Part shown: piece after piece, positions 12,557-63,651 of the stretch | Numbering within the stretch: the stretch's first letter is position 1 | Layout: each line of letters opens with the position of its first letter | Source of the DNA: Aureispira sp. CCB-QB1 | Lineage (GTDB): Bacteria > Bacteroidota > Bacteroidia > Chitinophagales > Saprospiraceae | Direction of reading: 5' to 3' | Assembly (NCBI RefSeq): GCF_000724545.1 | Contig: NZ_JHBV01000016.1 | Location: 372,001-436,000 of the forward strand | Length of the DNA stretch: 64,000 nucleotides | The notes under the pieces: generated by a model | The model's database searches: none | What the model was told of the DNA's origin: nothing | The model's input: only the letters and a program-made list of their open reading frames with translations | Translations under genes and position numbers: made by a program

Positions 12557-12610
12557 TTAATAGTCAAAAAATTACAATCAACCACAAAGTAGTAGTACGG
12601 CTAACTACTA
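12557..12610. repeat. partial copy of the dispersed two-ended repeat
   Basis: CAACCACAAAGTAGTAG (12579-12595) followed by GGCTAACTACTA (12599-12610) matches the interior and the TAGTAGTT end of other copies, with diverged bases. It sits between manC and the small membrane protein gene. Confidence 0.5.
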
Positions 12611-14113: not shown

Positions 14114-14160
14114 CAATAGTTTGCTAAAACCACATAGCAAGTTGTATGAGTTAACTACTA
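14114..14160. repeat. short copy of the dispersed two-ended repeat
   Basis: CAATAGTTTGCTAAAACCAC starts at 14114 and GAGTTAACTACTA ends at 14160, so both characteristic ends are recognisable with a 20-nt interior. It lies directly upstream of the HMA gene start. Confidence 0.6.
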
Positions 14161-22453: not shown

Positions 22454-22602
22454 CAATAGTTAGCTGCGCTCACGAAGTACCACGTATAGCAGCGAACCGA
22501 GCTATGCGAGTTCACGACAGTAGGGAGTAACAAAGCTAACTAAAAGCGCAGCGCTCACGAAGTAAACTAATATAAATGTGATTTTTTATCTTTTTGGTAC
22601 CT
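22454..22602 (-). repeat. copy of the dispersed repeat directly after the subtilase gene
   Basis: CAATAGTTAGCTGCGCTCAC begins 10 bp after the stop; TAGTTAGCT (22457-22465) faces AGCTAACTA (22534-22542). The 34-bp block at 22487-22520 is identical to 36085-36118. The part 22563-22602 (AAACTAATATAAATGTG, then TTTTTTATCTTTTTGGTA) is the reverse complement of 48909-48951. Confidence 0.8.
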
Positions 22603-31174: not shown

Positions 31175-31435
31175 AACTATTCTTTTTTTTTATTTGGAAA
31201 TACTCCTTAAACTTTAAGTTGGGGTATAGAAGATGCATCTTAATAACAAGTAGTTATTAGTATAGAAGCTTAAAAAATATTTCTCTGAATTTGTTTTTGG
31301 TAAGATCTTAGGAATCTTGAATCATTTATTTTTTGATCTGTATTTTATGTGAAATAATTTTTGAATTATATAAACAGAAATCAATAAATGTAAGTAAGTA
31401 AGCAGAAAAAATATAGACTTATTTTTATATAATTC

Positions 31436-31453
31436 TTTCTGAACGATTACTTA
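31436..31453 (-). repeat. reverse copy of the TAATCGTTCAGAAA motif
   Basis: TTTCTGAACGATTACTTA reads TAAGTAATCGTTCAGAAA on the minus strand, identical over 15 bases to the copy at 3899-3916. Confidence 0.55.
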
Positions 31454-31690
31454 TTTAAATGTAATAACTAACTATTGTTATTGTGTTCATCACTGTAATT
31501 AAAACAGCTTAAGTTTAAAATTGTTTAAAAAAAATAGATTTTTTCTATTTTAATTAGAGTCTATATGCACCTCTACCCCATTGTTCTTTTTTATGATCAA
31601 AGTTTATCTTTTGTGAACACTTCCTCCTTTTTTATTAATGCACCTCATTCCCAACGAAACATACTAAACTAATTATCAAACAATAATAAA

Positions 31691-33939: not shown

Positions 33940-34631
33940 AAAGTATTCAATTTTGTTCTAACACTTCTCATTTTTACAACTATCCAAATTAGGGGTTTTA
34001 CTTGCTTTTAGTACTTGTTCTGTCCCAAAAGAGTAAGTATTCATTCAAATAAGTTTGCTTTAATAAGTTTTTTTTCTTAGATTTATTATCGCCCTACAGC
34101 GTTTTGTTGGTAAATTTTGAAACAAATGTACGAATTTCATAGTACCTATATAATAATGGTTTATGGATTTTTTGATTTTTACAGTCAAGTGTACAAAATA
34201 CAACCTTAGATAATCACTTCCCTTCTTCTAATGTTGGTTCACTAATCTAAACAGCTTGTAAAAAGGGCAAGTTTATTATTACTCATATCGTTGTTTTAAT
34301 ACTCCGTTGATTTTTTAGTTTTTCTATGCCCCTGAACCGAACAAAGCAAGCTCACAAAGCATAGCAAGTAACAAAGGTTTACCAAGGAAAAACATAAAAA
34401 AGCATCTTACATTAGTTTGATTATCAGATTTCAAGACCAAAATCAGCAAAAAATCTTGTTAATAATCAAACTAATACGATTTTCAATAGAGTAATGTGTT
34501 TTCTACACGACATCTTTTCATCAAACTTTCTAATCTTTTAATTTGTTTAAAAGAAAGCCCCCTTGTCTCCAATAGAGTTTGATGGCATGATGGAACTTCG
34601 ATGAGCTTGACTTCACTAAAATATGTAGCTT
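33940..34631. other. 692-bp intergenic region with a dispersed-repeat copy
   Basis: No credible ORF. The repeat copy at 34299-34475 occupies the middle. Promoters for the divergent genes were not resolved; a TACATTTG (34130-34123, minus) resembles a -7 element but lacks a spaced TTG. Confidence 0.5.
34299..34475. repeat. copy of the dispersed repeat with inner hairpin
   Basis: It starts with ACTCCGTTGATTTTTTAG (a form of the TAGTAGTTCGTTGATTA end), carries CTGAACCGAACAAAGCAAGC and then ACCAAGGAAAAACATAAAAA, homologous to the interior of the 48856-49057 copy. The inner hairpin has arms ATTAGTTTGATTAT (34411-34424) and its exact complement (34462-34475). The opposite end was not found. Confidence 0.65.
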
Positions 34632-36050: not shown

Positions 36051-36060
36051 AATTAAATAG

Positions 36061-36165
36061 CAATAGTTCGTTGAAACCACGCAGTAGCAGCGAACCGAGC
36101 TATGCGAGTTCACGACAGCAGGGAGCTACCACGAAGTAGCACCGTAGGTAATCAACGAACTACTA
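36061..36165 (+). repeat. complete copy of the dispersed two-ended repeat
   Basis: Starts CAATAGTTCGTTGAAACCAC (36061) and ends ATCAACGAACTACTA (36165). The terminal inverted repeat is exact: TAGTTCGTTGA at 36064-36074 and its complement at 36152-36162. The interior block 36085-36118 is identical over 34 bp to 22487-22520. It is the clearest short copy in the window. Confidence 0.85.
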
Positions 36166-36189
36166 AAATAGAGTGCAAAGCAAAATAGT

Positions 36190-36260
36190 TTTGATAATTT
36201 GAATACTTGATAGGCACTGTCTACTAGAAATCAGTGGTATCAAATATTCAAATTATCAAA
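36190..36260. repeat. long hairpin between repeat and membrane-protein gene
   Basis: Two 23-nt arms (36190-36212 and 36238-36260) are complementary at 22 of 23 positions; the 25-nt loop has its own CACTG/CAGTG pairing. The arms begin TTTGATAATTTGAATA. It lies 61 bp before the ATG at 36322 and could be a regulatory leader, a terminator, or part of the neighbouring mobile repeat. Confidence 0.8.
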
Positions 36261-36321
36261 TAAATTAAACCTCTTTTTTATAACTTCTCCCTAAGGCATT
36301 GTATTTTTGGAATCTTATGTA

Positions 36322-37368
36322 ATGCAAATTATTGGCATTTGCAGAACAAGTATTTCAATAGATAGAAAAAATACCTACGTGCTACAACTTTTCCGAGACA
36401 ACCAAATTTTCACAATCTTATTTGTGTTTCTATATTTTCTTCTCTTTGGAGCAAATATTTGGCTATATCCTAATGATTTAACTCTTTTTGAAGAACTCCC
36501 TAGTACCCTTAGTACATGGGTCATGCAATGGCTTCTTCATCCTACGAGCAACAAAATGGCTTTTAGCATCTTGTTATTGATTCAGGCTTTTACAGTCAAT
36601 TCAATTGTCAACAACTTCAAACTGACCAAACACTACTCCTACATTACAGCCATTTGCTATATACTGCTACATTTTAGTTATTTTAACATTGATAGTTGTT
36701 CGCCCGTAATGCTAGCCAATACCTTTTTATTGTGGTCGTTGTATAGTATGTGCAACAGCTATGAAAAAAGAGTTTCTTTAGGCACCATTTTTAATATTGG
36801 CTTTGCCGCCGCAGTAGCAGCTCTATTTTATAATGGTTTTATTAGTTATTTTTTTTGGATTACGATTGGTTTGTTAATTGTCCGATCATTTGATTTCCAA
36901 GAATTTTTATTATTGATTGGAGGGTTCTTTATTCCTTTTTTCTTGTTGGGAATGTACCATTTTTTAGGCGATAGTTTTGACCAATGGATAGACCAAGAAC
37001 TAATGTCTCACTACTCAACTATGATTGTTCATTATGAGACCAATACAGCGCTGTATTTATTATTAGGCATTATATCTACCCCTTTGTTACTGGCCATTGG
37101 CAATCTACAAGCTTTATATTTTAAAACAACCGCTAGAGAAAAAAAATACATCCATACCGTTTTATTAATGCCCTTTATGGCTTTGTTAAGTCTCCTATTT
37201 CAAGATCAGCTATATAGTTATCATTTTGTTATATTCATGGTTCCGATGAGCATTTTGTTGAGTATTACGTTACAATCTTATAAAAGTCTAGCAGCATCAG
37301 AAGCTGTTCATTTTATTCTTTTTATGCTTTGCTTAGGCATTCAATACCAAACTTTCTTTTTTCAGTAA
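36322..37368 (+). CDS. polytopic membrane protein, DUF6427-like
   Basis: The ATG at 36322 (MQIIGICRTSISIDRKNTYV) is chosen over a TTG at 36307. About ten hydrophobic segments are seen, starting IFTILFVFLYFLLFGANIW. The stretch GTIFNIGFAAAVAALFYNGF followed by LLIGGFFIPFFLLGMYHF matches what I recall of the Bacteroidota DUF6427 family, once mislabelled as beta-carotene monooxygenase. The function is unknown and the protein sits in the inner membrane. It is framed by repeat elements on both sides. Confidence 0.7.
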   Translation: MQIIGICRTSISIDRKNTYVLQLFRDNQIFTILFVFLYFLLFGANIWLYPNDLTLFEELPSTLSTWVMQWLLHPTSNKMAFSILLLIQAFTVNSIVNNFKLTKHYSYITAICYILLHFSYFNIDSCSPVMLANTFLLWSLYSMCNSYEKRVSLGTIFNIGFAAAVAALFYNGFISYFFWITIGLLIVRSFDFQEFLLLIGGFFIPFFLLGMYHFLGDSFDQWIDQELMSHYSTMIVHYETNTALYLLLGIISTPLLLAIGNLQALYFKTTAREKKYIHTVLLMPFMALLSLLFQDQLYSYHFVIFMVPMSILLSITLQSYKSLAASEAVHFILFMLCLGIQYQTFFFQ

Positions 37369-37476
37369 AATGGACAAAGAAGCCATTTTTAAAGTAGGCT
37401 TTGGCACAGTATTTTGTACGATAAAGCATCAATACCCATTGACCAAATTTATATTTATTATTATTATCCAAAAACA

Positions 37477-37582
37477 ATCGTTCGTTGAGATTACGCAGTA
37501 ACAGCTACAACAGAGTAAACTTTCGTTAATATAGCGCAAAGAAGTCCCCTGTGAACGTAGTGAGCTAATGAACGAGCTACTA
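37477..37582 (-). repeat. copy of the dispersed two-ended repeat
   Basis: It begins AATCGTTCGTTGAGATTACG and ends AATGAACGAGCTACTA. Its right part, read in reverse, matches the left part of the copy at 48856 (TAGTAG.TCGTT.ATTAG.TC). The end of the element creates an in-frame ATG (37568) that adds ten spurious codons to the next gene. Confidence 0.65.
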
Positions 37583-37597
37583 AAAAATAAAAGCATC

Positions 37598-38044
37598 ATG
37601 AAATACCTTTTTTCTATTTTATTAGTAACATTTTCTGTACTTACTTATGCCCAAAATAACAATACTGTTTCTTGGTCGTTTGAAAGTAAAAAAACGGCTT
37701 CTAATGAATATACGATTCAAATGAAAGCGACCATTAAAGATGGCTGGTATGTATATTCTCAATATTTAGAAAGTGATGATGGTCCTATTCGTACAGCAAT
37801 TGTTCTAGAAGAAAACGCAGGAGTCGAATTAGTAGGAAAAGCTGAAGAAGAAGGGAATAAAGTTTCTGGATTTGATAGCCTTTTTGATATGGATATTACC
37901 AAGTATAAAAAACAGTTAATTATTACTCAAAAAATAAAAGCATCGAAAGTAAAAACGCTAAAGGGATACATTACTTTTATGACTTGTAACGATGAACAGT
38001 GCTTACCACCAACAGATGTTCCTTTTGAAATAAAATTAAAATAA
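37598..38044 (+). CDS. stand-alone DsbD alpha-domain protein
   Basis: The ATG at 37598 gives MKYLFSILLVTFSVLTYAQ, a signal peptide; the earlier ATG lies in a repeat. The 130-residue mature protein is a single DsbD N-terminal (alpha) domain: GWYVYSQYLESDDGPI, FDMDITKYKKQLIITQKI, and FMTCNDEQCLPPTDVPFE with the redox cysteines Cys130 and Cys135. In DsbD this domain passes electrons from the membrane domain to periplasmic partners. Here it is a separate periplasmic protein next to a full DsbD, so it probably acts as a soluble relay. A terminator follows, so it is its own transcript. Confidence 0.88.
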   Translation: MKYLFSILLVTFSVLTYAQNNNTVSWSFESKKTASNEYTIQMKATIKDGWYVYSQYLESDDGPIRTAIVLEENAGVELVGKAEEEGNKVSGFDSLFDMDITKYKKQLIITQKIKASKVKTLKGYITFMTCNDEQCLPPTDVPFEIKLK

Positions 38045-38068
38045 ATACTTCTTACATACAAGATTTAT

Positions 38069-38103
38069 AAAAGGATAAAGTCGCCAACTTTATCCTTTTT
38101 TTA
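38069..38103 (+). terminator. terminator after the DsbD-alpha gene
   Basis: AAAAGGATAAAGT (38069-38081) pairs exactly with 38087-38099, 5-nt loop, followed by a T run to 38103. Confidence 0.9.
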
Positions 38104-38466
38104 TAATTGCATAACCATCAATAATTTGCAAAAAACTTCATTAGCCTTATAATTAACAAGTGACAAGCTTATCACCCCTTACACAAAAGCTTTAATCATC
38201 AACTGCGCAGCACTCATGCAATACCACGAAGTAGCAGCGCAGCTAACTACTAAATCATAGTATTCTACTTAAAAAAACGTTAAAACAGTTTTTTATTTCA
38301 AACCCATAGGAAAATATCAAAATATCTTCATATCTTTATAAGCCTTTCTCACAAGAAGCAATGAATTCCTCTTAAAAAGAGGCTGCGCCTTGCTATTTTT
38401 TTCTATTTTTGTTTTGTGAGAATCTTCGATTCCTTTATTTTGTTACTTATAATAACTAACTATTTT
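38104..38466. other. intergenic region upstream of dsbD
   Basis: No ORF. Contains a partial dispersed repeat (38200-38252). A TATTTTTG at 38404-38411 fits the -7 consensus, but the nearest TTG is only 11 nt away, so the promoter call is weak. Confidence 0.45.
38200..38252 (-). repeat. partial copy of the dispersed two-ended repeat
   Basis: ACCACGAAGTAGCAGCGCAG (38223-38242) then CTAACTACTA (38243-38252) matches the reverse of the right end of the copy at 48856-49057 apart from the terminal inverted repeat variant (TAGTAGTTAGCTGCG). Confidence 0.6.
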
Positions 38467-41031
38467 ATGAGACACCTTATCTCCACTTTTCTGCTACTTT
38501 GCCTGACTTCGATTTGCTTAATGGCACAAGATAGCCCTGTAAAGTACACTTGGGAAGCCCAATCCCTTGGTGGCAATGAATTTGAAATCACCTTTAAGGC
38601 AAAAATTCAAGATGGGTGGTATACCTATTCTCAATTTTTAGAAAGTGAAGATGGTCCCATACCAACGACCATTACATTTGAGTCGAACAACGAAACAAAA
38701 AATGGAAAATCGACCGAAAAAACAAGCAAAGCATCTAATAAGGTCTCAGGTTTTGATGAGTTGTTTGAGATGAATATTACTAAGTACAAAAAGGACTTAA
38801 GTATTCAACAGAAAATTACCGTAAAAGATATTAACAAACCTGTTACTGGTTTTTTGGAGTACATGACTTGTGACGATACCAAATGCATGCCTCCCACTGC
38901 GGTAGAATTTGAGTTCATTCCTGCAAAATTAGTTGCTGCCGCTAGCAATGACAATGCTACCGCAACTAATGACATAGCTTCCACAAACACCGATGAGCAG
39001 CCAGCAGTAACCGAAGAACCGATATCTACTCCCAGTGCTAATCCGGCACAACCTGTTAGTTGGGTAGTTGAATTTAACAAAGTTTCTGAAAACGAAGTGG
39101 ATTTAATTGCCAAAGCTACTATTGGTGAGGGTTGGTATGTTTACTCTCAAACATTAGAAAGCGAAGATGGTCCAGTAGCAACAAGCATCAATTTTGAAGG
39201 GGATGCTGTTGTTGAAGAAGTTTCTAACGTAGAATCTGCCAGTAAACCAGAATATAAATTGCAAATGATGGACGAGGTGTTTGATATGGAATTGACCAAA
39301 TACAAACATGATTTTACCATCACACAACGCATCAAAGTTAAAGATCCCAAAGTTCCTGTAAAAGGCTATTTGAACTATATGACTTGTGATGCTACTAAAT
39401 GTATGCCTCCTACCGATGTAGAGTTTAGTTTTAGTTTTATGGGAGGTAATGGTGTTACAGGGAATGAATACAATGGTACTATTAAAGGAGATGTTTTTAA
39501 TCCAAGTCGTGAAAAATTACTTACTTCTTTAGAAACACCACTAGGAAAATGCGATGGCGAGGTTGGTATGACTGTTAACAACAATGTAGATGTTGTAGGT
39601 ATGAGCCTTTGGACTATCTTTATTTTAGGTTTTGGAGGCGGTTTGTTAGCTCTCTTGACACCTTGTGTTTTTCCTATGATTCCGATGACCGTTTCTTTAT
39701 TTTCAAAAGGTAAAAAGAGTAAAAAAGAAGGGATTAAAAATGCACTTATTTTTGGTGGTTCTATTATCATAATTTATGTTGCTTTAGGCTTATTTATTAC
39801 CTTAACATTTGGAGAAAATGCTTTAAACTTACTCTCTACTCACTGGGCAATGAACCTGACCTTCTTTGCACTATTCACTATATTTGCATTCTCTTTCTTT
39901 GGTTACTTCGAAATCACTCTACCATCTTCTTGGGCGAACAAAGCCGATCAAGCCTCTATGAAAGGTGGATTGATCGGGACATTTTTTGGAGCTTTTTCCA
40001 TTGCTTTGGTTTCATTTTCTTGTACAGGACCTATTGTCGGTACATTATTGGTTCAAGCTGCTGTTAACGGTGGTGTTGTCGGCCCAACAGTTGGTATGTT
40101 AGGCTTTTCTATCGCTCTAGCATTACCATTCACTTTATTTGCTGCTTTTCCTAGTTGGCTACAATCTTTGCCAAACTCAGGGGGTTGGATGACTTCAATG
40201 AAAGTTGTTTTAGGTTTTTTAGAATTGGCTTTAGGTTTGAAATTTTTGTCCACAGCAGATTTGACAGAGCATTGGGGAATTCTACCTTATGAGTTATTTA
40301 TTGGTTTATGGGCAATCATCTTCTTAGGAATGACGTTGTATTTATTCGGCATTATTCGCTTTCCACACGACAATCCTAATGCTAAGATCACAAATAAGCG
40401 TAAAGCCTTAGGAGCATTTGCAGGTATTTTGACAATATCTATCTTGTCTGGATTCATGACAAATCCTCAAACTAATGCCTTCAAAACTCCATTTTGGCTA
40501 AGTGGGCTAGCTCCATCTGCTTGTTACTCTTACATTAAACCTTGCCAAACTCCTGCTAATGAAAGCTCTGAATTTGCCTTTAGTGACCACTGCCCTCCTG
40601 GTATCAATCAATGTTTTGATGACTATGATGAAGCCTTGAAATACGCCAAGTCTGTCAATAAGCCTATTCTAGTAGATTTTACAGGTTATGGATGTGTTAA
40701 CTGTCGTAAAATGGAAGAAAATGTTTGGATTGATGAGGAAATTAACAAAATGCTTAACGAGGATTATGTTTTGGTCTCTTTGTATGTAGATGATCGTAAA
40801 AAACTAGACCAAGTGTTAAAGACACCTGAAGGGGTAAAGATTCGCAATGTTGGAAATAAATGGGCTGAATTTCAGAAAGTAAATTTCAAAAAATCGTCTC
40901 AACCTTACTATGCTTTAATTACACCAGATGAACAGGTCTTAAATACACCTAGAGCGTATACACCAGATATACCAACTTACCATAATTTCTTAAAATGTGG
41001 TCTTAAAACATTCAAAGAATCAAGCAACTAA
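38467..41031 (+). CDS. dsbD: thiol:disulfide interchange protein DsbD with two tandem alpha domains
   Basis: DsbD moves electrons from cytosolic thioredoxin across the inner membrane to periplasmic thiol proteins. The ATG at 38467 starts signal MRHLISTFLLLCLTSICLMAQ; the GTG at 38416 is rejected. Two alpha domains follow in tandem (each with GWY.YSQ.LESEDGP and YMTCD..KCMPPT, at about 25-150 and 190-320). The membrane domain has about eight helices (LTPCVFPMIPMTV; SFSCTGPIVGTLLVQA with its second redox Cys). The C-terminal thioredoxin-like domain has GYGCVNCRKMEENVW (Cys743, Cys746). One alpha domain is usual; two plus the free copy upstream make three. Confidence 0.93.
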   Translation: MRHLISTFLLLCLTSICLMAQDSPVKYTWEAQSLGGNEFEITFKAKIQDGWYTYSQFLESEDGPIPTTITFESNNETKNGKSTEKTSKASNKVSGFDELFEMNITKYKKDLSIQQKITVKDINKPVTGFLEYMTCDDTKCMPPTAVEFEFIPAKLVAAASNDNATATNDIASTNTDEQPAVTEEPISTPSANPAQPVSWVVEFNKVSENEVDLIAKATIGEGWYVYSQTLESEDGPVATSINFEGDAVVEEVSNVESASKPEYKLQMMDEVFDMELTKYKHDFTITQRIKVKDPKVPVKGYLNYMTCDATKCMPPTDVEFSFSFMGGNGVTGNEYNGTIKGDVFNPSREKLLTSLETPLGKCDGEVGMTVNNNVDVVGMSLWTIFILGFGGGLLALLTPCVFPMIPMTVSLFSKGKKSKKEGIKNALIFGGSIIIIYVALGLFITLTFGENALNLLSTHWAMNLTFFALFTIFAFSFFGYFEITLPSSWANKADQASMKGGLIGTFFGAFSIALVSFSCTGPIVGTLLVQAAVNGGVVGPTVGMLGFSIALALPFTLFAAFPSWLQSLPNSGGWMTSMKVVLGFLELALGLKFLSTADLTEHWGILPYELFIGLWAIIFLGMTLYLFGIIRFPHDNPNAKITNKRKALGAFAGILTISILSGFMTNPQTNAFKTPFWLSGLAPSACYSYIKPCQTPANESSEFAFSDHCPPGINQCFDDYDEALKYAKSVNKPILVDFTGYGCVNCRKMEENVWIDEEINKMLNEDYVLVSLYVDDRKKLDQVLKTPEGVKIRNVGNKWAEFQKVNFKKSSQPYYALITPDEQVLNTPRAYTPDIPTYHNFLKCGLKTFKESSN

Positions 41032-41110
41032 GCAATGTAAAAAGCTTGTTATATAAAAAAAAAATACATCCAAAAGCGATTGTTTATTCTTTTTGTTTGT
41101 ATAAAAAACT

Positions 41111-41118
41111 TAACTTTG
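41111..41118 (+). promoter_or_regulatory. possible -7 element of the M3 peptidase gene
   Basis: TAACTTTG matches TAnnTTTG exactly, 123 bp before the ATG at 41242. The best TTG (41093-41095) is only 15 nt upstream, so this is a tentative call. Confidence 0.35.
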
Positions 41119-41241
41119 AGAGAGGAGAAATACTAAAATGTGTTTCTTCTCTTTTTGTTTATCCATCAATGTTCGGTATACAAAGACCTCGAACCAAAAT
41201 ATAGCTTTACGTGTACCTCACATTTTAATATTATACAGCGC

Positions 41242-42939
41242 ATGAAATTTAGTGATTTCACCTACGAACGTCCTAGTGTTGAAGCATTCAAAAACTCATT
41301 TATCAACGAGTTGCAAGCTTTTCATAATGCAAAAACTTTTAAAGCTCAAAAGGAAGCCATTTTGGCGATCAATCAATTGAGAAGTGATTTTGATTCAATG
41401 TATTCTTTGGCGAGTGTTCGCTATTCTATCGACACCACTGATCGTTTTTATGAAGGTGAGAATGATTTCTTTGATAACAGCTATCCTGAGTTAAACGAGC
41501 ACACCAATAGTTATTTTAAAGCCTTACTAACGTCGCCTTTCCGAAAAGAGTTAGAAGCAGAATTTGGACCACAGTTATTTACGATTTCAGAGTTGCGCCT
41601 AAAAACTTTTGAGCCAACAATAATTGAGGATTTAAAAGAAGAAAACAAACTGGACTCTCAATATAGAAAAATTAAAGCTCAGGCCATTATTCAATTTGAT
41701 GGACAAGAATACAACTTATCCTCAATCAACCCTCTTGAATTATCTAAAGATAGAGCAACAAGAAAACGAGCTGCCGAGGCTAAATGGGCATTTTATGCTG
41801 AAAAAGCAACTGATATTGAATCTATTTATCATAATATGGTTCAGTTGCGCCACAAGATGGCAACTACTTTGGGGTACAAAAATTATGTTGAATTAGGTTA
41901 TGCACGAATGCTGCGTTCGGACTATAATGCTGAAATGGTGGCTAACTTTCGTCAACAGGTACAAGAGCACATTGTTCCTATTGCGACTCAATTGCTAAAG
42001 AGACAAGCCAATCGCCTAGGGCTGGATTCCTTAAAGTACTATGATGAAGGATTTAGTTTTCCATCTGGCAATCCCAAGCCTAAAGGGAGTCCCAAATGGA
42101 TGGAAGATCAAGCTCGTATTATGTATGCGCAGTTATCGACAGAAACAGATGAATTCTTTCAGTTCATGAGCGACAAAGAATTAATGGACTTAGTAGCCAA
42201 AGATGGCAAACAAACAGGTGGTTACTGTACCTTTTTAAACAAGTTTAAATCACCGTTTATTTTTTCAAATTTCAATGGAACTAGCCACGATATTACAGTA
42301 TTAACACATGAAGCTGGACATGCTTTTCAAGCTTACTCTACTAGTAATAATGGTAAGTTGTACGATTACCTTTGGCCAACTTATGAAGCGTGTGAAATTC
42401 ATTCTATGAGTATGGAATTTTTCACTTGGCCTTGGATGGATTTGTTTTTTAAAGAAGATACAGAAAAGTTTAAATTCTCTCATTTAGCGAGTTCTATTTT
42501 ATTTTTACCGTACGGAGTTGCTATTGATGAGTTTCAGCATATTATTTATGAAAATCCTACAATGACGCCTTCAGAGCGCAATGCTGTTTGGAGTGATTTG
42601 GAAAAGAAATACTTGCCAACTAGAGACTATGCAGGTAACAAACATCTAGAAGAAGGTCGTTTTTGGCAACGCCAAAGCCATGTTTTTGGTATGCCTTTTT
42701 ACTATATCGATTATGTATTGGCTCAAATTTGTGCCTTCCAATTTTGGCAACGTAGTCTTGAAGATAAAACGGGTTCTTGGAAAGATTATATCAACCTGTG
42801 CAAGGCAGGTGGCTCTAAATCGTTCTTAGAACTGGTACAACTCGCCAACTTAAAGTCTCCTTTTGAAGATGGTTGTCTAGCAGAAGTTGTCAAACCGATT
42901 CAAGCGTATTTGGATAGTGTAGATGACTCCAAATTCTAA
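41242..42939 (+). CDS. M3-family oligoendopeptidase (PepF-like)
   Basis: The frame opens at a GTG (41140), but MKFSDFTYERPSVEAFKNSF at the ATG 41242 is the usual family N-terminus. Zinc metallopeptidases of family M3 cleave short peptides in the cytosol. The active site THEAGHAFQAYS gives HExxH at His356-His360, and the third ligand Glu lies in WPTYEACEIHSMSMEF downstream. FAKDGKQTGGYC-like AKDGKQTGGYCTF and HVFGMPFYYIDYVLAQICAF are typical of the oligoendopeptidase F branch. The 565-residue length is normal. A strong terminator follows. Confidence 0.93.
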   Translation: MKFSDFTYERPSVEAFKNSFINELQAFHNAKTFKAQKEAILAINQLRSDFDSMYSLASVRYSIDTTDRFYEGENDFFDNSYPELNEHTNSYFKALLTSPFRKELEAEFGPQLFTISELRLKTFEPTIIEDLKEENKLDSQYRKIKAQAIIQFDGQEYNLSSINPLELSKDRATRKRAAEAKWAFYAEKATDIESIYHNMVQLRHKMATTLGYKNYVELGYARMLRSDYNAEMVANFRQQVQEHIVPIATQLLKRQANRLGLDSLKYYDEGFSFPSGNPKPKGSPKWMEDQARIMYAQLSTETDEFFQFMSDKELMDLVAKDGKQTGGYCTFLNKFKSPFIFSNFNGTSHDITVLTHEAGHAFQAYSTSNNGKLYDYLWPTYEACEIHSMSMEFFTWPWMDLFFKEDTEKFKFSHLASSILFLPYGVAIDEFQHIIYENPTMTPSERNAVWSDLEKKYLPTRDYAGNKHLEEGRFWQRQSHVFGMPFYYIDYVLAQICAFQFWQRSLEDKTGSWKDYINLCKAGGSKSFLELVQLANLKSPFEDGCLAEVVKPIQAYLDSVDDSKF

Positions 42940-42975
42940 TAAAATCCATAAGCTCAACGCTAATTGAGTCATAAA

Positions 42976-43012
42976 ATAAGTGCTGTGTAACCTTTATTTA
43001 CACAGCACTTAT
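42976..43012 (+). terminator. terminator of the M3 peptidase gene
   Basis: Perfect 15-bp stem ATAAGTGCTGTGTAA (42976-42990) with complement at 42998-43012 and a 7-nt loop, 36 bp after the stop. Confidence 0.85.
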
Positions 43013-43100
43013 CATTTAAAAAAGGGCTTTTTGCCTCTTTTCTTCTATTCATGGGAACTTTTGCCCAAGTGTAAAGGTTGCTTTCAAAAAAAATAATACG

Positions 43101-43400
43101 ATGGAAGAGAAAAAAATATGTCCTATTTGTTCAAGAGAAATTGCACCACCAGCTAATTTACACCATCTTCTTCCTATATCCAGAGGCGGGGCTGGCACTC
43201 CAACCGTTCTGTTGCATCAAGTTTGCCACAACAAAATTCACTCTTTATTTAGCGAAAAAGAGTTGGCAAAAGATTTTGACACGATAGAAAAATTACTAGC
43301 CAATGAAGAGATGCAGCAATTTATCAAGTTTATCCGCAAGCAACCTCCTACCTATTATGATAGAAATAAACGATCAAAAAACAAAGGTCGTCGAAGATAA
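43101..43400 (+). CDS. small HNH-type protein
   Basis: 99 residues, no signal peptide. The N-terminal half is an HNH-like zinc finger: CPICSREI, then NLHHLLPISRGGAGTP, then HQVCHNKIHSLF, giving two CxxC-type pairs and the His/Asn/His core. The tail is very basic (DRNKRSKNKGRRR) and suits nucleic-acid binding. Similar tiny HNH proteins are often annotated as restriction-like endonucleases without proof. No methylase or phage gene is next to it. It could be a nuclease or only a DNA- or RNA-binding finger. Confidence 0.8.
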   Translation: MEEKKICPICSREIAPPANLHHLLPISRGGAGTPTVLLHQVCHNKIHSLFSEKELAKDFDTIEKLLANEEMQQFIKFIRKQPPTYYDRNKRSKNKGRRR

Positions 43401-43470
43401 CTTACAGTTTCTCTTAAAAAGTTCTTAATACAAGTCCTTAAGCTCTTTTCCTTCCTTCATTTTTTATATT

Positions 43471-43499
43471 TTGGCTGTGATTACATCGACCTATCTTTG
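43471..43499 (+). promoter_or_regulatory. promoter of the zinc metalloprotease gene
   Basis: TTG (43471-43473), 18-nt spacer, TATCTTTG (43492-43499): an exact Bacteroidota consensus pair. Predicted transcription start near 43505, leaving a ~50-nt leader before the ATG at 43556. Confidence 0.75.
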
Positions 43500-43555
43500 G
43501 GTCTTTAATCCATTCTGATTTTTATAAATAAAAAATAGAGACAACAGCTAAGATT

Positions 43556-46048
43556 ATGAGAACGTATATTCTATATGCCCTTATCTTCTCCTTTGCATTA
43601 CTAATAATGCCTTTGGATGGATATGCGCAAAAGAAAAAGAAAAACAAAAAAAATCAAGAACCAGAAAAGACAGAAAAACCTGCTGCCAAAAAAAAGGCAC
43701 CACCTAAAAAAGGAGCCCCCAAACCATATAAACAAGTTATTACCAAAAAAGCCATTACTCAAAAGGGGCTAATTACAACGCACAAAGTTGATGAAAAGTA
43801 CTACTTTGAACTTCCTATGAATTTGTTGGAAAAGGAAATTATGGTGGTTAGTCGTATTTCAGGTTATGTAAAAAACTTGAGTTTTGGAGGTGCAGGAATG
43901 AAATCTCGCCCACAACAGGTCATTCGATTCGAAAAAGTAGACGACAGAATACTAATGCGTTCGGTTTCTTATCATAGCGTTGCCAACGAAAAAGAGCCCA
44001 TCTATAAGTCTCTAAAAAACAACAATTTTGAACCTATTATCCATAGCTTTCCTGTTGCTGCTTATAACAAAGATAGTTCTGCCAATAAAATGTCAGGAGT
44101 AGTTTTTGAAGTAAATCCTTTTTTCACCACTGATATTGCTCTAATTGGAGCTTTAAATGATGGGCAACGAAAACGATTTGCCATTGGAGGTGTCGATAGT
44201 AAACGTAGCTTAATTACCAGCACAAAAAGCTTTCCTACTAATACGGAAGTAAGGCATATATTGACCTATAGGGGCAAAAAACTGCCCGATAATTTCCTGA
44301 CTCAGACACTTTCTGTCGAAATGAATCAATCTTTCATATTATTACCTGAAACATTGATGCAACCAAGATTTTATGATGGACGTGTAGGGTACTTTTCTAT
44401 TCAACAGACCAACTATAGCTCTGAAAGACAAAAAGCACAAACGCAACGTTTTATTACCAAATGGCGTTTGGAACCCAAAGATATGGCTGCTTTCAAAAGA
44501 GGCGAATTGGTAGAACCTAAGAAACAAATTGTCTATTATATAGACCCTGCTACTCCTGAAAAATGGCGTCCTTACCTAAAACAAGGGGTGAACGATTGGC
44601 AAAAAGCCTTTGAAGCAGCAGGTTTCAAAAATGCCATTATAGCCAAAGATCCTCCAACCAAAGAGGAAGATCCAGATTGGAGCCCTGAAGATGTCCGTTA
44701 TTCGGTTATTCGTTACATTACTACGGATATCCCCAATGCCCAAGGACCACACGTACATGATCCTCGTACGGGCGAGATTTTAGAATCTGATATCTTGTGG
44801 TATCATAATGTGATGAACTTATTAAGGAATTGGTATTTGATTCAAACAGCTGCAATTAATCCAGCTGCTCGTAGCGTTCAGTTTGATGATGCCGTTATGG
44901 GAGAATTGATTCGCTTTGTGGCGGCGCATGAAGTTGGACACACGTTAGGATTGCCTCACAACATGGGTTCAAGTGTTGCTTACCCTGTCGACTCGTTGCG
45001 TTCTCCAACATTTACAGCTACGCATGGAACAGCACCTTCTATTATGGATTATGCCCGTTTTAACTATATTGCGCAACCAGGAGATGGTGTCAAAAGCTTG
45101 GGGGCTAAAATTGGAGAATACGATGTTTGGTCTATCATTTATGGTTATAAGCCAATTCCTAGTGCCAATAGTGCTGAAGAGGAACGTAGTACTTTAAATG
45201 GATGGATTAAGGAAAGAGCTGACGACCCTGTTTTTCGTTTTGGCGCACAACAATGGCGTGTCGTAGATCCTTCTTCTCAAACAGAAGATTTGGGAGATGA
45301 CGCCGTTAAAGCCAGTACGCTAGGAATTGCGAACTTAAAGCGAATTTTGCCTAAACTAATCGAGTGGTCGGCAGAAGACGGCAAGGATTATAGTGACTTA
45401 CGAGAATTATATGGACAAATTTTTGGTCAACTAAACCGCTATATGGGGCACGTTTCGTCTAATATTGGTGGTGTTTACCAATATACCAAAACGCACGACC
45501 AAGAAGGAACTATCTTCTCTCACGTTCCAAAAGTAAAGCAAGAAAAGGCGATGTTGTTCTTGAATAAAGAGTTGTTTCAAACACCTAAATGGCTGATTGA
45601 TCCTGCCATCTTAGATAGAATCGAATCGACAGGCATTGTCAATCGCTTGTTAAGCATGCAAAAAAGAACACTCAATAACTTATTTGATCCCGCTCGATTG
45701 GCTCGATTAGCGGAAGCAGAAGCCACAGAAGGCAGTGACAAAGCTTACACCTTAATTGACTTGTTTATGGGGGTTAAATCTGGTATTTGGGAAGAACTCA
45801 ATAGTGGTACAGCAATTGATCTATATCGTCGTAACTTACAGCGTGCTTATATTGAGAAAATGGAGGCTTTAATGAAAGATCCTAAAGATCAATCGGATGT
45901 AAAAGCGATTTCAAGAAGTATGTTAAAGCGGTTAGAGAAAGACATTAAGAATAATATTAGCAAGCAAACTAACGCTATCTCTACTGTTCACTTAGAAGAT
46001 ATTCTAGCAAGAATCGATGCTATTTTAAACCCAATTGGCATCAAATAA
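43556..46048 (+). CDS. secreted zinc-dependent metalloprotease, DUF5117/DUF5118 type
   Basis: MRTYILYALIFSFALLIMPLDGYAQ is a signal peptide (residues 1-25), followed by a Lys/Pro-rich linker. The N-terminal region (LITTHKVDEKYYFELPMNLL; VSRISGY) fits DUF5117/5118. The protease core shows FVAAHEVGHTLGLPHNMGSS: HExxHxxxxxH with His458, Glu459, His462 and His468, a metzincin-like arrangement, and SIMDYARFNY (Met-turn candidate) downstream. The long helical C-terminal part is typical. It should act in the periplasm or outside the cell. Substrates are unknown. There is a good promoter upstream and a shared terminator downstream. Confidence 0.9.
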   Translation: MRTYILYALIFSFALLIMPLDGYAQKKKKNKKNQEPEKTEKPAAKKKAPPKKGAPKPYKQVITKKAITQKGLITTHKVDEKYYFELPMNLLEKEIMVVSRISGYVKNLSFGGAGMKSRPQQVIRFEKVDDRILMRSVSYHSVANEKEPIYKSLKNNNFEPIIHSFPVAAYNKDSSANKMSGVVFEVNPFFTTDIALIGALNDGQRKRFAIGGVDSKRSLITSTKSFPTNTEVRHILTYRGKKLPDNFLTQTLSVEMNQSFILLPETLMQPRFYDGRVGYFSIQQTNYSSERQKAQTQRFITKWRLEPKDMAAFKRGELVEPKKQIVYYIDPATPEKWRPYLKQGVNDWQKAFEAAGFKNAIIAKDPPTKEEDPDWSPEDVRYSVIRYITTDIPNAQGPHVHDPRTGEILESDILWYHNVMNLLRNWYLIQTAAINPAARSVQFDDAVMGELIRFVAAHEVGHTLGLPHNMGSSVAYPVDSLRSPTFTATHGTAPSIMDYARFNYIAQPGDGVKSLGAKIGEYDVWSIIYGYKPIPSANSAEEERSTLNGWIKERADDPVFRFGAQQWRVVDPSSQTEDLGDDAVKASTLGIANLKRILPKLIEWSAEDGKDYSDLRELYGQIFGQLNRYMGHVSSNIGGVYQYTKTHDQEGTIFSHVPKVKQEKAMLFLNKELFQTPKWLIDPAILDRIESTGIVNRLLSMQKRTLNNLFDPARLARLAEAEATEGSDKAYTLIDLFMGVKSGIWEELNSGTAIDLYRRNLQRAYIEKMEALMKDPKDQSDVKAISRSMLKRLEKDIKNNISKQTNAISTVHLEDILARIDAILNPIGIK

Positions 46049-46060
46049 TAAACCATGAAC

Positions 46061-46115
46061 TAGTAATTCGACGATTGAAGAAGCGAACCAATAACTTCAA
46101 TTCGTCGAATTACTA
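46061..46115. terminator. large bidirectional terminator hairpin
   Basis: Arms TAGTAATTCGACGATTGAAG (46061-46080) and 46095-46115 pair over 20 bases with one bulge. It lies between the convergent metalloprotease and beta-barrel genes, 12 and 7 bp from their stops. Confidence 0.85.
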
Positions 46116-46122
46116 ATCATTA

Positions 46123-47040
46123 TTACTCTTTTCCAAAAGTATATTTTATCCCTACACTAAAAGAAAAGGCATTAAAATTACTAGTCTGTGTCGGTAAATT
46201 CAATGGTTTGTCTCTATCAACATTTCCGCTAACTCGGACAATTACATCATCAGGAACATCTGGCAAAATATTAATTCCTGCCGTGGTATTAGATTCTTGT
46301 GTTAGTTCATCCTGAAAGACGATTTGTGTTACCAATACATCTGCTGTTTCCAATTCATTGGTTACTTCTCCGTTAGGTGAAACTGCTTCATCCTTTACCA
46401 CTGTTGCTTTATCAGAACGAATTCTCAAGCCAGTATACGTTGCCTGTAAATAGATCCCTAAATTATTATTTACGTTATACTGCACTCCAATACTTGATTC
46501 AAATCCAACAGAGAATTTACCATCCACATCCGTTTGTTTTGCTCTTGATCCTCCTACTCCATACTCCCAAGACTCCTCCAAAACAGTCTTTCCCCAAAAT
46601 GGCAACAAAACGCCAAACTTGGCATAAGGCTGAAACTTGCCTTCGGGAGCTTGAACAACCAAAGAAGGCGTAGCTCGCATTTGATAAGAATATCCTGTTC
46701 GGCTATATTGATTATTTTTGCTGCTTATGCTGTTATCACTACCATATTCTTGCTTAAAACCTTGGAAATAATAAATCTCCAATTCCACACCAAAGTAAGG
46801 TGTTATCATATATCCTCCCGCCACAGAAAATCGTGCCCCCTGCCCAAATGAACCAAAGACTGTTCGTTGAGCGGTCACGACATTATTAGAATCTCGTGTT
46901 AAGGCAGGTATTGCAAAAGCATCTTGCCCAACATTAAATCCAGCTCCTGCGCCTGCTCGAATATAACCTTGAGCTTGAGTAGAAACAGATGTAAACATTA
47001 GAACCAATAAAGCGGTAACAACAAAGAATAATTTTCTCAT
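46123..47040 (-). CDS. outer membrane beta-barrel protein
   Basis: MRKLFFVVTALLVLMFTSVS is a signal peptide ending near TQAQ. The mature chain alternates polar and hydrophobic residues in strand-like stretches: YIRAGAGAGFNVGQDAF, FSVAGGYMITPYFGVELEIYY, YSYQMRATPSLVVQ, NLGIYLQATYTGLRIR, and it ends FSFSVGIKYTFGKE with a penultimate aromatic strand typical of outer-membrane barrels. About eight to ten strands are likely. The function is unknown. It converges on the metalloprotease, with a common terminator. Confidence 0.8.
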   Translation of the reverse strand: MRKLFFVVTALLVLMFTSVSTQAQGYIRAGAGAGFNVGQDAFAIPALTRDSNNVVTAQRTVFGSFGQGARFSVAGGYMITPYFGVELEIYYFQGFKQEYGSDNSISSKNNQYSRTGYSYQMRATPSLVVQAPEGKFQPYAKFGVLLPFWGKTVLEESWEYGVGGSRAKQTDVDGKFSVGFESSIGVQYNVNNNLGIYLQATYTGLRIRSDKATVVKDEAVSPNGEVTNELETADVLVTQIVFQDELTQESNTTAGINILPDVPDDVIVRVSGNVDRDKPLNLPTQTSNFNAFSFSVGIKYTFGKE

Positions 47041-47340
47041 ATTAAGAATTGTTTTTTGGTTGAAAATAAATAGGTAGGCTCTATCTCTGTCTGTCTCTAA
47101 ATTCTCTTACATACGAATAAAGCCACTAGACAAAATATACAAAATGTTTCTAAAATAGAAGAAAATAGAATCTTGGGAACACAAAAAAGCTCCAACGCCC
47201 CCTTCTTATTATTATAATTTAAATACTTAAGCTATTTTGTCAGCCGATACCTCAACAAACACACCTACATTAATTAATATTTTTTTCTTAAAAAACTACT
47301 TGTATATTGGAATTCATTAGAAGGATGGTATTTTTAGCCT
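47041..47340. other. 300-bp intergenic region between beta-barrel gene and kdsD
   Basis: AT-rich, no ORF. Only the kdsD promoter-like pair (47307-47336) is supported. Confidence 0.5.
47307..47336 (+). promoter_or_regulatory. kdsD promoter, predicting a leaderless transcript
   Basis: TTG (47307-47309), 19 nt, TATTTTTA (47329-47336, one base off TAnnTTTG). The ATG at 47341 begins only 4 nt later, so transcription would start at or next to the start codon. Confidence 0.5.
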
Positions 47341-48291
47341 ATGAATGAAATAAGAAAAATAGCTGCCCAAGTTTTTCACATCGAATCCGATTCTGTCAAA
47401 AGATTAACAGCGCTGCTCAATCAAGATTTTGACAAAGCAGTTGACATACTTTTTAATTGCAAAGGACGAATTGTAGTTTGTGGAATTGGCAAATCGGGAT
47501 TGGTAGGCAAGAAAATTGCAGCAACACTAGCGAGCACTGGTTCTCCCAGTTTTTTTTTACACCCATCAGAAGCAATTCATGGAGATTTGGGTATGTTGAT
47601 GCCCCAAGATTGCTTTCTCAGTATCTCAAATTCTGGTGAGACAGATGAAATTCTACAAATTGTACCTTACGTTAAACAATTAGGGCTTCCACACATTACT
47701 TTAGTAGGAAATGTTCATTCAACGTTGGCACAAAATGCCGATGCGGTCTTAAACATTCAAGTACAGCAAGAAGCCTCTCCTATTTCTGTCGTTCCAATGG
47801 CATCGACAACAGCAACAATGGCGATGGGAGATGCCATTGCTACCGTTTTAATTCATTTGAGATCATTTGATGAGACCGACTTTGCAAAATTCCACCCTGG
47901 TGGTTCTTTAGGACACAAACTGGTTACCAAAGTGGGAACTGAAATGCATCGACACAACTTGCCAACAGCATTATTAGATACTACTGTTAAAGAGGTAATC
48001 ATGAGTATGTCTAAAGGTATTTTTGGGATGATTGTCATTTTAGATGATACTCAAAAAATTGCGGGTGTCATTACTGATGGCGACTTACGTAGGAGTTTAA
48101 ATAAATTCCCTAGTAGTTCTTTTTTTGATCTAAAAGCTAAGGAAATGATGACACCAACACCTAAAACAATTCAAGAAGACTGTCCTTTGTGGGAGGCAGA
48201 TCAATTGATGCTTGCTCATAAAATAACCGCATTACCAGTAGAAAAAGAAGGTCGATTAATTGGCATTCTTGCCAAACATCAGATCAAGTAA
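47341..48291 (+). CDS. kdsD: arabinose-5-phosphate isomerase (KpsF/GutQ family)
   Basis: The enzyme converts ribulose-5-phosphate to arabinose-5-phosphate, the first step to Kdo of lipopolysaccharide. A SIS sugar isomerase domain covers ~30-170 (GRIVVCGIGKSGLVGKKIAATLASTG; FLHPSEAIHGDLGML; SISNSGETDEIL). Two CBS domains follow (about 200-316: VIMSMSKGIFGMIVILDD, GVITDGDLRRSL, ADQLMLAHKITALPV). The 316-residue length is standard. An unknown 152-residue gene starts 18 bp downstream, so they form an operon. Confidence 0.94.
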   Translation: MNEIRKIAAQVFHIESDSVKRLTALLNQDFDKAVDILFNCKGRIVVCGIGKSGLVGKKIAATLASTGSPSFFLHPSEAIHGDLGMLMPQDCFLSISNSGETDEILQIVPYVKQLGLPHITLVGNVHSTLAQNADAVLNIQVQQEASPISVVPMASTTATMAMGDAIATVLIHLRSFDETDFAKFHPGGSLGHKLVTKVGTEMHRHNLPTALLDTTVKEVIMSMSKGIFGMIVILDDTQKIAGVITDGDLRRSLNKFPSSSFFDLKAKEMMTPTPKTIQEDCPLWEADQLMLAHKITALPVEKEGRLIGILAKHQIK

Positions 48292-48309
48292 GTAGATAAG
48301 TAGAATACT

Positions 48310-48768
48310 ATGGAATTAGAAGAATTATTACAAAAAGAAGACCCCGCTCATTGGGAAGTTGCTTTTAGAGATTATGTTCAGAGTGGAAAAGTAGCTATAG
48401 ATAATTTTTTATGGCAATGGCTTTGGGAACGTGTGGCATGGTCGGAGGAAGCTTACAGCTTGTTTTACAACAACGCACCATTAGTAAAGGCAAACATCTT
48501 TGGAATCACAGTAACTATTACAGTAGGAGACCAAAACAAAAGGCGCTTTGTCAATGTAAGTCTGTTTGAGAGCAACCCATATCATCCCGACTTTGAAGAA
48601 TTTGTCATTGTCGATGATAAAGAATGGCGCTTTTCATCCATTGGCAATCCTTATATTGATGAACCCAATTATAAATTTTGGGAGAAAGCACTCTTCTGCA
48701 AACTCGTCAATGTCGCTTTTGAAGAACGAAAGGGATTAGATTTTTTAATTGAGCGATCTAGACGCTAG
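48310..48768 (+). CDS. unknown 152-residue cytosolic protein in kdsD operon
   Basis: No signal peptide or membrane segment. The N-terminal half is helical with many tryptophans (HWEVAFRDYVQSGKVAIDNF; LWQWLWERVAWSEEAYSLF). The second half has strands (IFGITVTITVGDQNKRRFVN; FEEFVIVDDKEWRFSSIGNP). No catalytic motif is apparent and I do not recognise the family. Tight linkage to kdsD (18 bp) suggests coupled expression. Coding reality is supported by its full length, good start and operon position. Confidence 0.6.
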   Translation: MELEELLQKEDPAHWEVAFRDYVQSGKVAIDNFLWQWLWERVAWSEEAYSLFYNNAPLVKANIFGITVTITVGDQNKRRFVNVSLFESNPYHPDFEEFVIVDDKEWRFSSIGNPYIDEPNYKFWEKALFCKLVNVAFEERKGLDFLIERSRR

Positions 48769-48855
48769 AATTCTGGTAGCAACCCATAACTAATTTGCTA
48801 ATTTTTCTTTTATGAATCGCTAAAATGTTGTTATTTTTAGCCCTTTATTATTTTA

Positions 48856-49057
48856 TAGTAGTTCGTTGATTAGTTCGCTACGCTCATGAGGGCGCAAGCT
48901 TAGTTTTTTACTTTTTTACCAAAAAGATAAAAAAGCACATTTATATTAGTTTGATAATCAAATTTTTAACACAAAACGCAACAAATTTACAACTTATTGA
49001 TTATCAAACTAATAAAGTTTAGCTGCGCTGCTACTCCGTGGTTTCAACGAACTATTG
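48856..49057 (-). repeat. complete long copy of the dispersed repeat with inner hairpin
   Basis: Starts TAGTAGTTCGTTGATTAG and ends GTTTCAACGAACTATTG, so it is inverted relative to the 36061 copy. Terminal inverted repeat TAGTTCGTTGA at 48859-48869 and 49044-49054 is exact. The inner hairpin arms ATTAGTTTGATAATCAA at 48945-48961 and 48997-49013 are perfectly complementary over 17 bp. The rest of the 48769-49084 gap has no gene. Confidence 0.88.
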
Positions 49058-49084
49058 ATTTTATTGACGTTTAGTACATCATTT

Positions 49085-51954: not shown

Positions 51955-52345
51955 GAATCTTTTTTAGATAATTAGCTACTATTCATTCCAATGACTTCAC
52001 TACCCCTCTTTAAAATTCCTAACAAACTAGCTAACAACAAGTTAAACCAAACGGTTGTATTGGAATTTTTTCTATAAAATGATATATACTAAAATTTGGT
52101 AGAGGGACAAGGATAAAGATATTATTTTTTGGTAGATAATCTATGATAGTAGTCCGCTGATTTTTTAGTTTTTTACAACGAAGCAAACACCTCTACAAGC
52201 CAAGGAAGCCAATCAACACAAAAAATCTACAACTATAAAGCAGCAACATAACTAAGTATTAGTCAGATAGTAGGCATAAAATAAAAGAACGAAGTAATTA
52301 GACCAACCTAACTACTTCGCTCTATTCTTAATTCATATCAATGAA
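51955..52345. other. 391-bp intergenic region with repeat fragment and terminator
   Basis: No gene. TAGTAGTCCGCTGATTTTTT (from 52147) is one end of the dispersed repeat, similar to the start of the 34299 copy; the other end was not found. A hairpin at 52290-52319 ends the PepSY-like gene. Confidence 0.5.
52290..52319 (-). terminator. terminator of the PepSY-like gene
   Basis: CGAAGTAATTAG (52290-52301) pairs with CTAACTACTTCG (52308-52319), one mismatch, 27 bp past the stop on the minus strand, with T-rich sequence further downstream. Confidence 0.7.
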
Positions 52346-62707: not shown

Positions 62708-62727
62708 TATTTTATTAATAAGCTACT

Positions 62728-62746
62728 AAGTAGTCGTTCAGAAAAA
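62728..62746 (+). repeat. TCGTTCAGAAAA motif copy
   Basis: AAGTAGTCGTTCAGAAAAA, one base different from the copies near 3864 and 31436. It lies between the hydrolase and the DUF2306 genes. Confidence 0.5.
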
Positions 62747-63609: not shown

Positions 63610-63651
63610 AGTTAGTCGCTACACTGCTACTGCATGGCTGTTGACAACTAC
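63610..63651 (-). repeat. degenerate copy of the dispersed repeat overlapping a stop codon
   Basis: Read in reverse it is AGTAGTTGTCAACAGCCATG then CAGTAGCAGTGTAGCGACTA, matching GTTGAAACCACG..AGTAGCAGCG..CTAACTA of other copies with several changes. It covers the TAG stop (63650-63648) of the last gene. Confidence 0.5.

Follow-up and report, generated by a model that had tools for sequence, protein, structure and literature searches.

In a 64,000-nt stretch of the genome of Aureispira sp. CCB-QB1 (Bacteroidota, Saprospiraceae; contig NZ_JHBV01000016.1, here C16, bases 372001 to 436000; hereafter the window), a family of short noncoding repeats is represented by two main copies, at positions 36061 to 36165 and 48856 to 49057, that lie in mutually inverted orientation. 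We consider it likely that mobility operates here at two levels: the repeat is a miniature inverted-repeat transposable element (MITE) moved in trans, and its interior serves as a landing pad for hairpin units of 22 to 36 nt that are themselves mobilized in trans. The MITE is a family of established type, and this marine bacterium is host to well over a hundred such gene-free elements; what differs lies in its interior units, of which the commonest, the 22-nt unit A22, has precise empty counterparts, differs in presence between two genomes of one species, and is conserved as a structure.

The source genome is a draft of 7.37 Mb in 184 contigs, with a completeness of 99.2%. Counts given for 1.25 Mb refer to the window plus 60 fetched stretches of the same genome, which were chosen for matches among the first 100 listed; element density in this set therefore does not represent the genome at large. 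Another genome of this species, G148 (hereafter the second genome), comprises two contigs, with a chromosome of 7,314,351 bp, and was aligned to about 729 kb of the source genome (372 kb of C16, 124.5 kb of C3, 133.8 kb of C5, and 99.0 kb of C14, with one fetched stretch, the 20th of its set, left out). Identity between the two is 99.3 to 99.6% per block of C16 and averages 99.4 to 99.5% on C3, C5, and C14.

Judged by its sequence features, the element is a MITE with imperfect 14-bp ends and AT-rich target duplications of 6 bp (sometimes 5 or 7 bp). The initial annotation, made from the letters of the window, had given the two main copies 11-bp inverted ends. The coordinates and the inversion proved exact and the 11-bp ends are present (four exact copies of TAGTTCGTTGA in total), although 14-bp ends describe them better: one side reads CAATAGTTCGTTGA, the other TAGTAGTTCGTTGA, and the two agree at 12 of 14 positions; in outline, the element is CAATAGTTCGTTGA...TCAACGAACTACTA. 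With up to one mismatch, the window contains seven matches to the 11-mer, where 1.0 would be expected (none of 100 shuffles has as many), and exact copies number 304 in the genome versus 12 for the reversed control. Within the 1.25 Mb there are 31 exact pairs that face inward less than 3 kb apart, and 29 have target duplications directly outside their ends: 6 bp in 23 pairs, 7 bp in 4, and 5 bp in 2. The pairs lacking a duplication are two right ends 447 bp apart and another flanked by TTAATT/TTAATC. A search with fuzzy ends, requiring 6-bp flanks with at most one mismatch, returned 58 elements: 42 of this family, which we call family A, and 16 of a sibling family B with ends CATTACTCCGTTGA...TCAACGGAGTATTA. 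The set excludes elements with 7-bp duplications (four among the exact pairs, including that at C3:121827) and holds a few weak members; a 561-bp family B candidate with six end mismatches looks spurious.

As had been noted from the window, the element is intergenic and encodes no protein: none of the 58 midpoints falls in an open reading frame (ORF) of at least 150 amino acids (aa), in DNA of which such ORFs make up 80.4%, and no ORF of at least 80 aa from the window list lies inside any window copy. Nor did the 1.25 Mb contain a pair of exact ends 450 to 6,000 bp apart with matching 6-bp flanks that could represent a longer autonomous copy. A family A MITE has moved recently: the source genome carries a 202-bp copy (C3:121827-122028) between two CAAGTTA sequences where the second genome has a single CAAGTTA. 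Outside the genome, the sole plasmid record with similar DNA belongs to Aureispira sp. CCB-E (Saprospiraceae) and covers 57% of the 202-bp copy at 90.5% identity; scans of genome contigs for the MITE and for the insertion sequence (IS) transposase described below gave no match, records close to the source genome possibly having been left out.

Genome-wide copies, target duplications, the empty site, and an IS with like ends and the same duplication length together argue for the MITE reading of the initial annotation, which had proposed looking for exactly these. It had also named conservation in place with compensatory change as pointing to an RNA or regulatory element. For the MITE, such an element was rejected: in 39 other sampled relatives, the 11-mer stands at or near control counts (the highest, in a genome of the same genus, G003, is 12 versus 11 for the control), and one copy is polymorphic in position. 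Compensatory change is present, but in the 22-nt unit nested in the element, which the annotation had not set apart.

The search for a partner enzyme was limited to PF01609 (DDE_Tnp_1), other transposase families not being searched, and found three transposases in the source genome, only one of which has a pair of like ends. This is an IS on contig C39 (L063:1282-2646) of 1,365 bp, present as a single copy in the assembly, with perfect 22-bp inverted ends (CAATACTTCGTTGAAGTATTAA), a TTATGC duplication, and a 429-aa ORF whose product scores above the Pfam cut-off for PF01609. The closest NCBIfam models are those for IS701 and IS4, below their cut-offs (the best, IS701_3, at 92.3 bits against 170); because only the general Pfam cut-off for DDE_Tnp_1 is reached, we call the IS IS4/IS701-like. 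Its ends match the two MITE ends at 13 and 11 of 14 positions, and on the strength of this match and of the shared duplication length, the C39 transposase, or a near relative with like ends, probably moves the MITE in trans. The best plasmid-borne relative, in Persicobacter, is 39% identical and has ends (CAATACTCCGT) that resemble those of family B; by eye, TATTAAA flanks it on both sides. A complete family A element (L063:1031-1254) lies only 27 bp from the C39 IS. The other two PF01609 transposases, L061 and L062, were rejected as partners: neither has a pair of like ends within 1.5 kb on each side at up to three mismatches. L061 (C16:176.2-177.35 kb) is an IS4-type IS with a transposase above the NCBIfam IS4_2 cut-off, and this 1.16-kb stretch is missing from the second genome. 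MITEs mobilized by DDE transposases of the IS4/IS701 type resemble family A in their shortness, lack of an ORF, inverted ends, mostly 6-bp duplications, and the presence of a like-ended IS in the genome, but the interior of the Aureispira element is unlike theirs in being built of small units that are found elsewhere too.

A bare 146-bp form of the MITE recurs, and longer copies consist of this form plus insertions at fixed points; the range in length, from 35 to about 310 bp, could come from nesting rather than decay. The insertions belong to unit families of 22 to 36 nt (A22, B22, C26, D34 in forms a and b, D36, and G26). A22 (ACCACGNAGTAGCAGCGNAGCT) enters the bare MITE after GTTGAA, B22 (AACTGCGCAGCACTCACGAAGT) sits at mirror-image sites of the inner palindrome and is reversed in one arm, and several of the others (C26, D34a/b, D36, and further units) sit beside or inside each other. 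At up to four mismatches, A22 has 132 matches in the 1.25 Mb, of which 48 fall within the 58 listed elements and 84 do not; its reversed pattern has none. At up to three mismatches, an A follows directly in 112 of 116 cases for A22, 22 of 22 for B22, 13 of 14 for C26, 12 of 12 for D34a, 5 of 6 for D34b, and 5 of 5 for D36. Read from these contexts, the units enter at fixed points just 5′ of A, mostly AA, and nearly always in the same orientation, and filled and empty pairs indicate no target duplication beyond 1 to 3 ambiguous bases. Loss by slippage is unlikely because the unit borders share only these 1 to 3 bases with the target.

Empty counterparts were sought by joining the 12-nt flanks on either side of A22 and searching the resulting 24-mer with up to two mismatches, starting from 178 occurrences (up to three mismatches) in stretches of the two genomes. 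They exist for 38 of 119 distinct contexts, compared to 0 of 400 random removals of 22 nt. By eye, the contexts are of about ten kinds, among them the two ends of the MITE, borders of the units B22, D34a, D36, and G26, and three sites in a separate repeat family, X, whose contexts with empty counterparts include CAAGT^AAAACAGCCTTC and TATAA^AAACAACCTTC. Family X measures about 158 bp, has the ends TAAGTAATCGTTCA and TAAGTAAGTGGACAG, and carries A22 in some copies; it occurs in the window at 3844 to 3943, 18448 to 18479, 31407 to 31467, and 62710 to 62745, and four insertions that one genome of the species has and the other lacks lie at C16:354549, C3:108200, C5:100671, and C5:118471.

Units also come and go between these two genomes. 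On the compared contigs lie 35 MITEs of the set, of which 32 could be placed in the second genome; 22 have the same length within 14 nt, and the other 10 differ by at least 15 nt. At C3:17919-18086, the presence of A22 (at C3:17934) in the source genome only is the sole large change, the rest being identical at 145 of 146 positions. The same is true of D34a (at about C5:92730) at C5:92599-92778, again in the source genome only and with 145 of 146 remaining positions identical. The closest other copies of these two elements are 97.0 and 98.3% identical to them, respectively. At C14b:53899, it is the second genome that has an additional A22; at the window copy 48856 to 49057, the second genome is without A22 and has a D unit of another type.

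Such differences invite a simpler account, namely, that an ordinary MITE is subject to gene conversion or recombination only, with each unit gained or lost once by chance and spread along with the MITE. This account draws on the facts that units occupy the same few sites across many MITE copies, that several copies, compared at one locus, differ by exchanged blocks rather than by single units (at C14b:7416 and at 48856 in the window), and that donors with the same flanking letters exist, and gene conversion may explain part of the strain differences. As a full explanation we judge it unlikely: A22 has identical borders in contexts that share few flanking bases (MITE ends, family X sites, and other genera), gene conversion cannot create A22 where contexts lack flanking homology, precise empty counterparts occur in both genomes, and A22 is abundant in G003 (72 matches), a genome with near-background counts of the MITE end motif. 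Among differences of at least 8 nt between the two genomes in the compared stretches, none is a unit inserted at a non-repeat site. The second genome also has an extra segment of about 790 bp at about 62.5 kb of C3, which by eye resembles a small IS carrying a short ORF for a transposase.

Comparison of its variants indicates that conservation of A22 is structural and that its final hairpin pair abuts the insertion point. The unit comprises two GNA-triloop mini-hairpins, on one strand only, with stems of 2 and 3 bp; both loops have the form G-N-A, the middle base (position 7 or 18) being free, and, by covariation, the last pair of the second hairpin takes in the last base before the insertion point. 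Across seven unit families, the unit strand holds 10 two-pair GNA mini-hairpins and the opposite strand none (mean of 0.96 in shuffles, with 0 of 2,000 reaching 10); these families are not all independent, B22 and C26 having a 3′ part in common. Counted per genome among the matches listed (first places per genome only), 24 of 34 two-mismatch variants of A22 are Watson-Crick compensatory, where 0.9% is expected; the pairs concerned are 14-22, 15-21, and 4-10, and pair 14-22 is seen as A-T, C-G, G-C, and T-A. When genome and loop letters are ignored, the matches listed hold 15 two-mismatch variants, 5 of them compensatory. Over 46 distinct variants, 98.7% of cells pair, and covariation is 0.324; shuffling lowers it to 0.077 (none of 500 shuffles reaches the observed value), and sliding the partners gives no more than 0.027.

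Compensatory changes are classic for RNA, which raises two further accounts. One holds that the units are selected RNA elements (processing, termination, or stability hairpins) that the MITE carries between genes and that are immobile themselves. The intergenic setting suits it (midpoints in ORFs are 0 of 58 for the MITE and 3 of 132 for A22), but we regard it as very improbable, given that units are nested in each other and are precisely gained and lost between strains, and that the window has no Rfam match above the gathering score. The other holds that units move through an RNA intermediate, by reverse transcription or reverse splicing. Covariation cannot separate RNA from DNA, and small size and precise insertion recall the small dispersed repeats (SDRs) of cyanobacteria, for which movement by an RNA intermediate has reportedly been proposed. 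This, too, seems improbable, if less so than the first: GNA triloops are a DNA-type motif, and G-N-A on two or three pairs, as in A22, fits a known DNA mini-hairpin, which speaks against selected RNA elements as well. Hairpins of 3 and 2 pairs are described as unusually stable, with melting points of 88.5 and 76.5°C (PMC10527192).

Of 396 genomes of the order, 19 (17 beyond the two of this species) contain A22 followed by AA at up to two mismatches; they represent 5 of 164 genera, and the reversed control gave 0 hits among the matches listed. Counts are 359 in the source genome, 351 in the second genome, 72 in another species of the genus (G003), and up to 56 elsewhere; a single match with an uncompensated change in a genome of another family (G507) may be a chance match. 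A covariance model of A22, run on 395 genomes of the phylum with 20 candidates scored per genome and strict filters, gave single matches in two other families at 34 bits each. Both read ACCGCGAAGCAGCACCGAAGGTAA, with a third pair type, G4-C10, in addition to C15-G21; a third match, at 25.5 bits, is not relied on. In a genome of another genus (L070:1349-1613), A22 is carried by an element whose 22-bp inverted ends (ATAAGAGCCTGTTTAAAAATTT) differ from those of the window MITE. In G171, also of another genus, A22 occurs on a single plasmid-like contig of 65,058 bp, C6 (L069, L075, and L079), whose ends overlap (plasmid-like or misbinned) and which by eye carries a family-B-like MITE.

In the two-level reading, which we favor, a DDE_Tnp_1 transposase (that of the C39 IS or a near relative) would move the MITE in trans. 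For the units, we infer that an enzyme supplied in trans, other than a Y1/RAYT (REP-associated tyrosine transposase) enzyme, would recognize the GNA-hairpin strand while it is folded and single-stranded, cut the unit at the foot of its 3′ hairpin, and join it to a target before AA. Transposition of the MITE would spread loaded copies through the genome, their loads being reshuffled as copies exchange sequence.

Several observations weigh against this reading. The enzyme for the units is hypothetical, and at the level of the MITE, the C39 IS ends agree with the MITE ends only to the extent given above and its transposase fails the NCBIfam cut-offs. The strain-level gains and losses of units could be short gene conversions between MITE copies; for the window copy 48856 to 49057, exchange between copies is likely because it is 93.3% identical to its counterpart in the second genome outside gaps and 96.1% identical to another copy in its own genome. 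The source genome is a draft of many contigs, so repeats in it may be partly misassembled. As for structure, compensation is lacking in 10 of the 34 double variants, including one at pair 14-22 itself; within the source genome only, covariation is weaker (11 double-changed cells versus 3.3, with a slide of -3 also giving 11, among variants that include some cut by a nested module); and standard DNA folding of the units gives no unusual stability (z of -1.1 to 0.4). The searches with the A22 pattern (up to 1 or 2 mismatches) and with the structure model across the phylum lean towards conforming sequences, and a shorter A22 pattern with one mismatch, found in 8 of 199 genomes of the family, also matched 5 times in those 199 genomes when reversed.

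Among known systems, A22 resembles the cyanobacterial SDRs, in another phylum. As reportedly described by Elhai and colleagues in 2008 from Nostoc and relatives, SDRs are mobile repeats of 21 to 27 nt that are embedded in minitransposons and nested within themselves, and some are said to share a secondary structure backed by compensatory changes. Size (22 nt), nesting in MITEs, and a shared structure with compensatory change would thus be common to both, SDR features being given here as reported; the longer units (26 to 36 nt) lie partly outside the SDR size range. The differences are the host (Bacteroidota rather than cyanobacteria), the two GNA mini-hairpins that give A22 a structure of its own, and the gain and loss of units observed here between two genomes of one species. 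We know of no enzyme for SDRs, and how a 22-nt piece of DNA moves precisely has, to our knowledge, been an open question since they were reported. Empty counterparts, strain differences, and structure conservation make such movement testable, and the units, if mobile on their own, would be among the smallest mobile DNA known.

Repetitive extragenic palindromic (REP) sequences and REPINs are, like A22, short hairpin repeats between genes, and A22 has a GTAG before its second hairpin. This GTAG is not invariant: it becomes GAAG in a compensated variant, together with a change of A4 to T. REP stems mostly have 6 to 9 pairs (PMC3733652), against 2 to 3 in A22. Y1_Tnp (PF01797) had no match in the source genome and was positive in 5 of 14 control genomes. 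REP/RAYT identity was rejected on the lack of a Y1 transposase match in the genome, the short stems, and the variable GTAG; since none was found in a genome that is 99.2% complete, a Y1/RAYT transposase is an unlikely agent for the units. BrickBuilt of Porphyromonas gingivalis, likewise a MITE from the Bacteroidota, contains a 23-nt repeat, but this forms a tandem minisatellite (PMC4596501), whereas the units here are single and dispersed and also occur outside the MITE. None of five literal unit or end strings occurs in the open-access papers searched, and those on Aureispira together with repeats and transposition include no title on repeats. That A22 and its sisters form a new class of mobile DNA is a bolder proposition, which we put forward tentatively and with more doubt than confidence: 22 to 36 nt long, defined not by sequence but by GNA-triloop mini-hairpins of the unit strand, excised and inserted before AA as folded single-stranded DNA by a trans-acting enzyme, carried by MITEs, and present across at least the host family (Saprospiraceae) and singly in two other Bacteroidota families.

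Within the window, the 105-bp family A copy at 36061 to 36165 (plus strand) lies in a perfect AAATAG duplication (36055-36060 and 36166-36171). It holds one A22 unit at 36128 to 36149 (plus; cmsearch 39.7 bits over 36128-36151), a variant in which C15-G21 is a compensated pair and after which AA stands, and another at 36076 to 36103 (plus; 27.4 bits, 28 bases for 24 model positions) that runs into an E-type module. The 202-bp family A copy at 48856 to 49057 (minus) has a perfect ATTTTA duplication (48850-48855 and 49058-49063). Its A22, at 49021 to 49042 (minus; 39.8 bits over 49019-49042), is the one absent from the same-place MITE of the second genome, and its 34-nt D34a unit, at 48872 to 48905 (minus), stands where that genome has a D36-type unit.

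The nine shorter or worn copies that the initial annotation had listed are, by eye, of mixed nature: three are two-ended A-type elements and three are half or composite copies, but two belong to family B and one is a decayed 22-nt unit. The A-type elements are a diverged family A copy at 37475 to 37582 (plus) with a 5-bp duplication; the shortest, of 35 bp and barely more than its two ends, at 7129 to 7163 (plus), flanked by ATATAA/ATGTAA; and a short one at 14114 to 14160 (plus), by eye with an ATTTTT duplication. A half copy at 38200 to 38252 (plus) joins a B22-like unit (38201-38222), A22 (38223-38244), and a right end; a composite decayed copy of several modules occupies 22454 to 22602 (plus); and a decayed copy at 12557 to 12610 (plus) has a weak A22-like stretch (13.9 bits, E of 0.096). 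Family B is represented by an element with a worn left end at 34298 to 34496 (minus; TGTTTT duplication, by eye, outside the 58-element set) and by a lone B-like end at 52147 to 52173 (plus). The decayed A22 unit is at 63612 to 63638 (minus; cmsearch 15.5 bits, E of 0.036). In the window, three related stretches of about 99 nt occur in two neighboring ORFs at 37703 to 39189.

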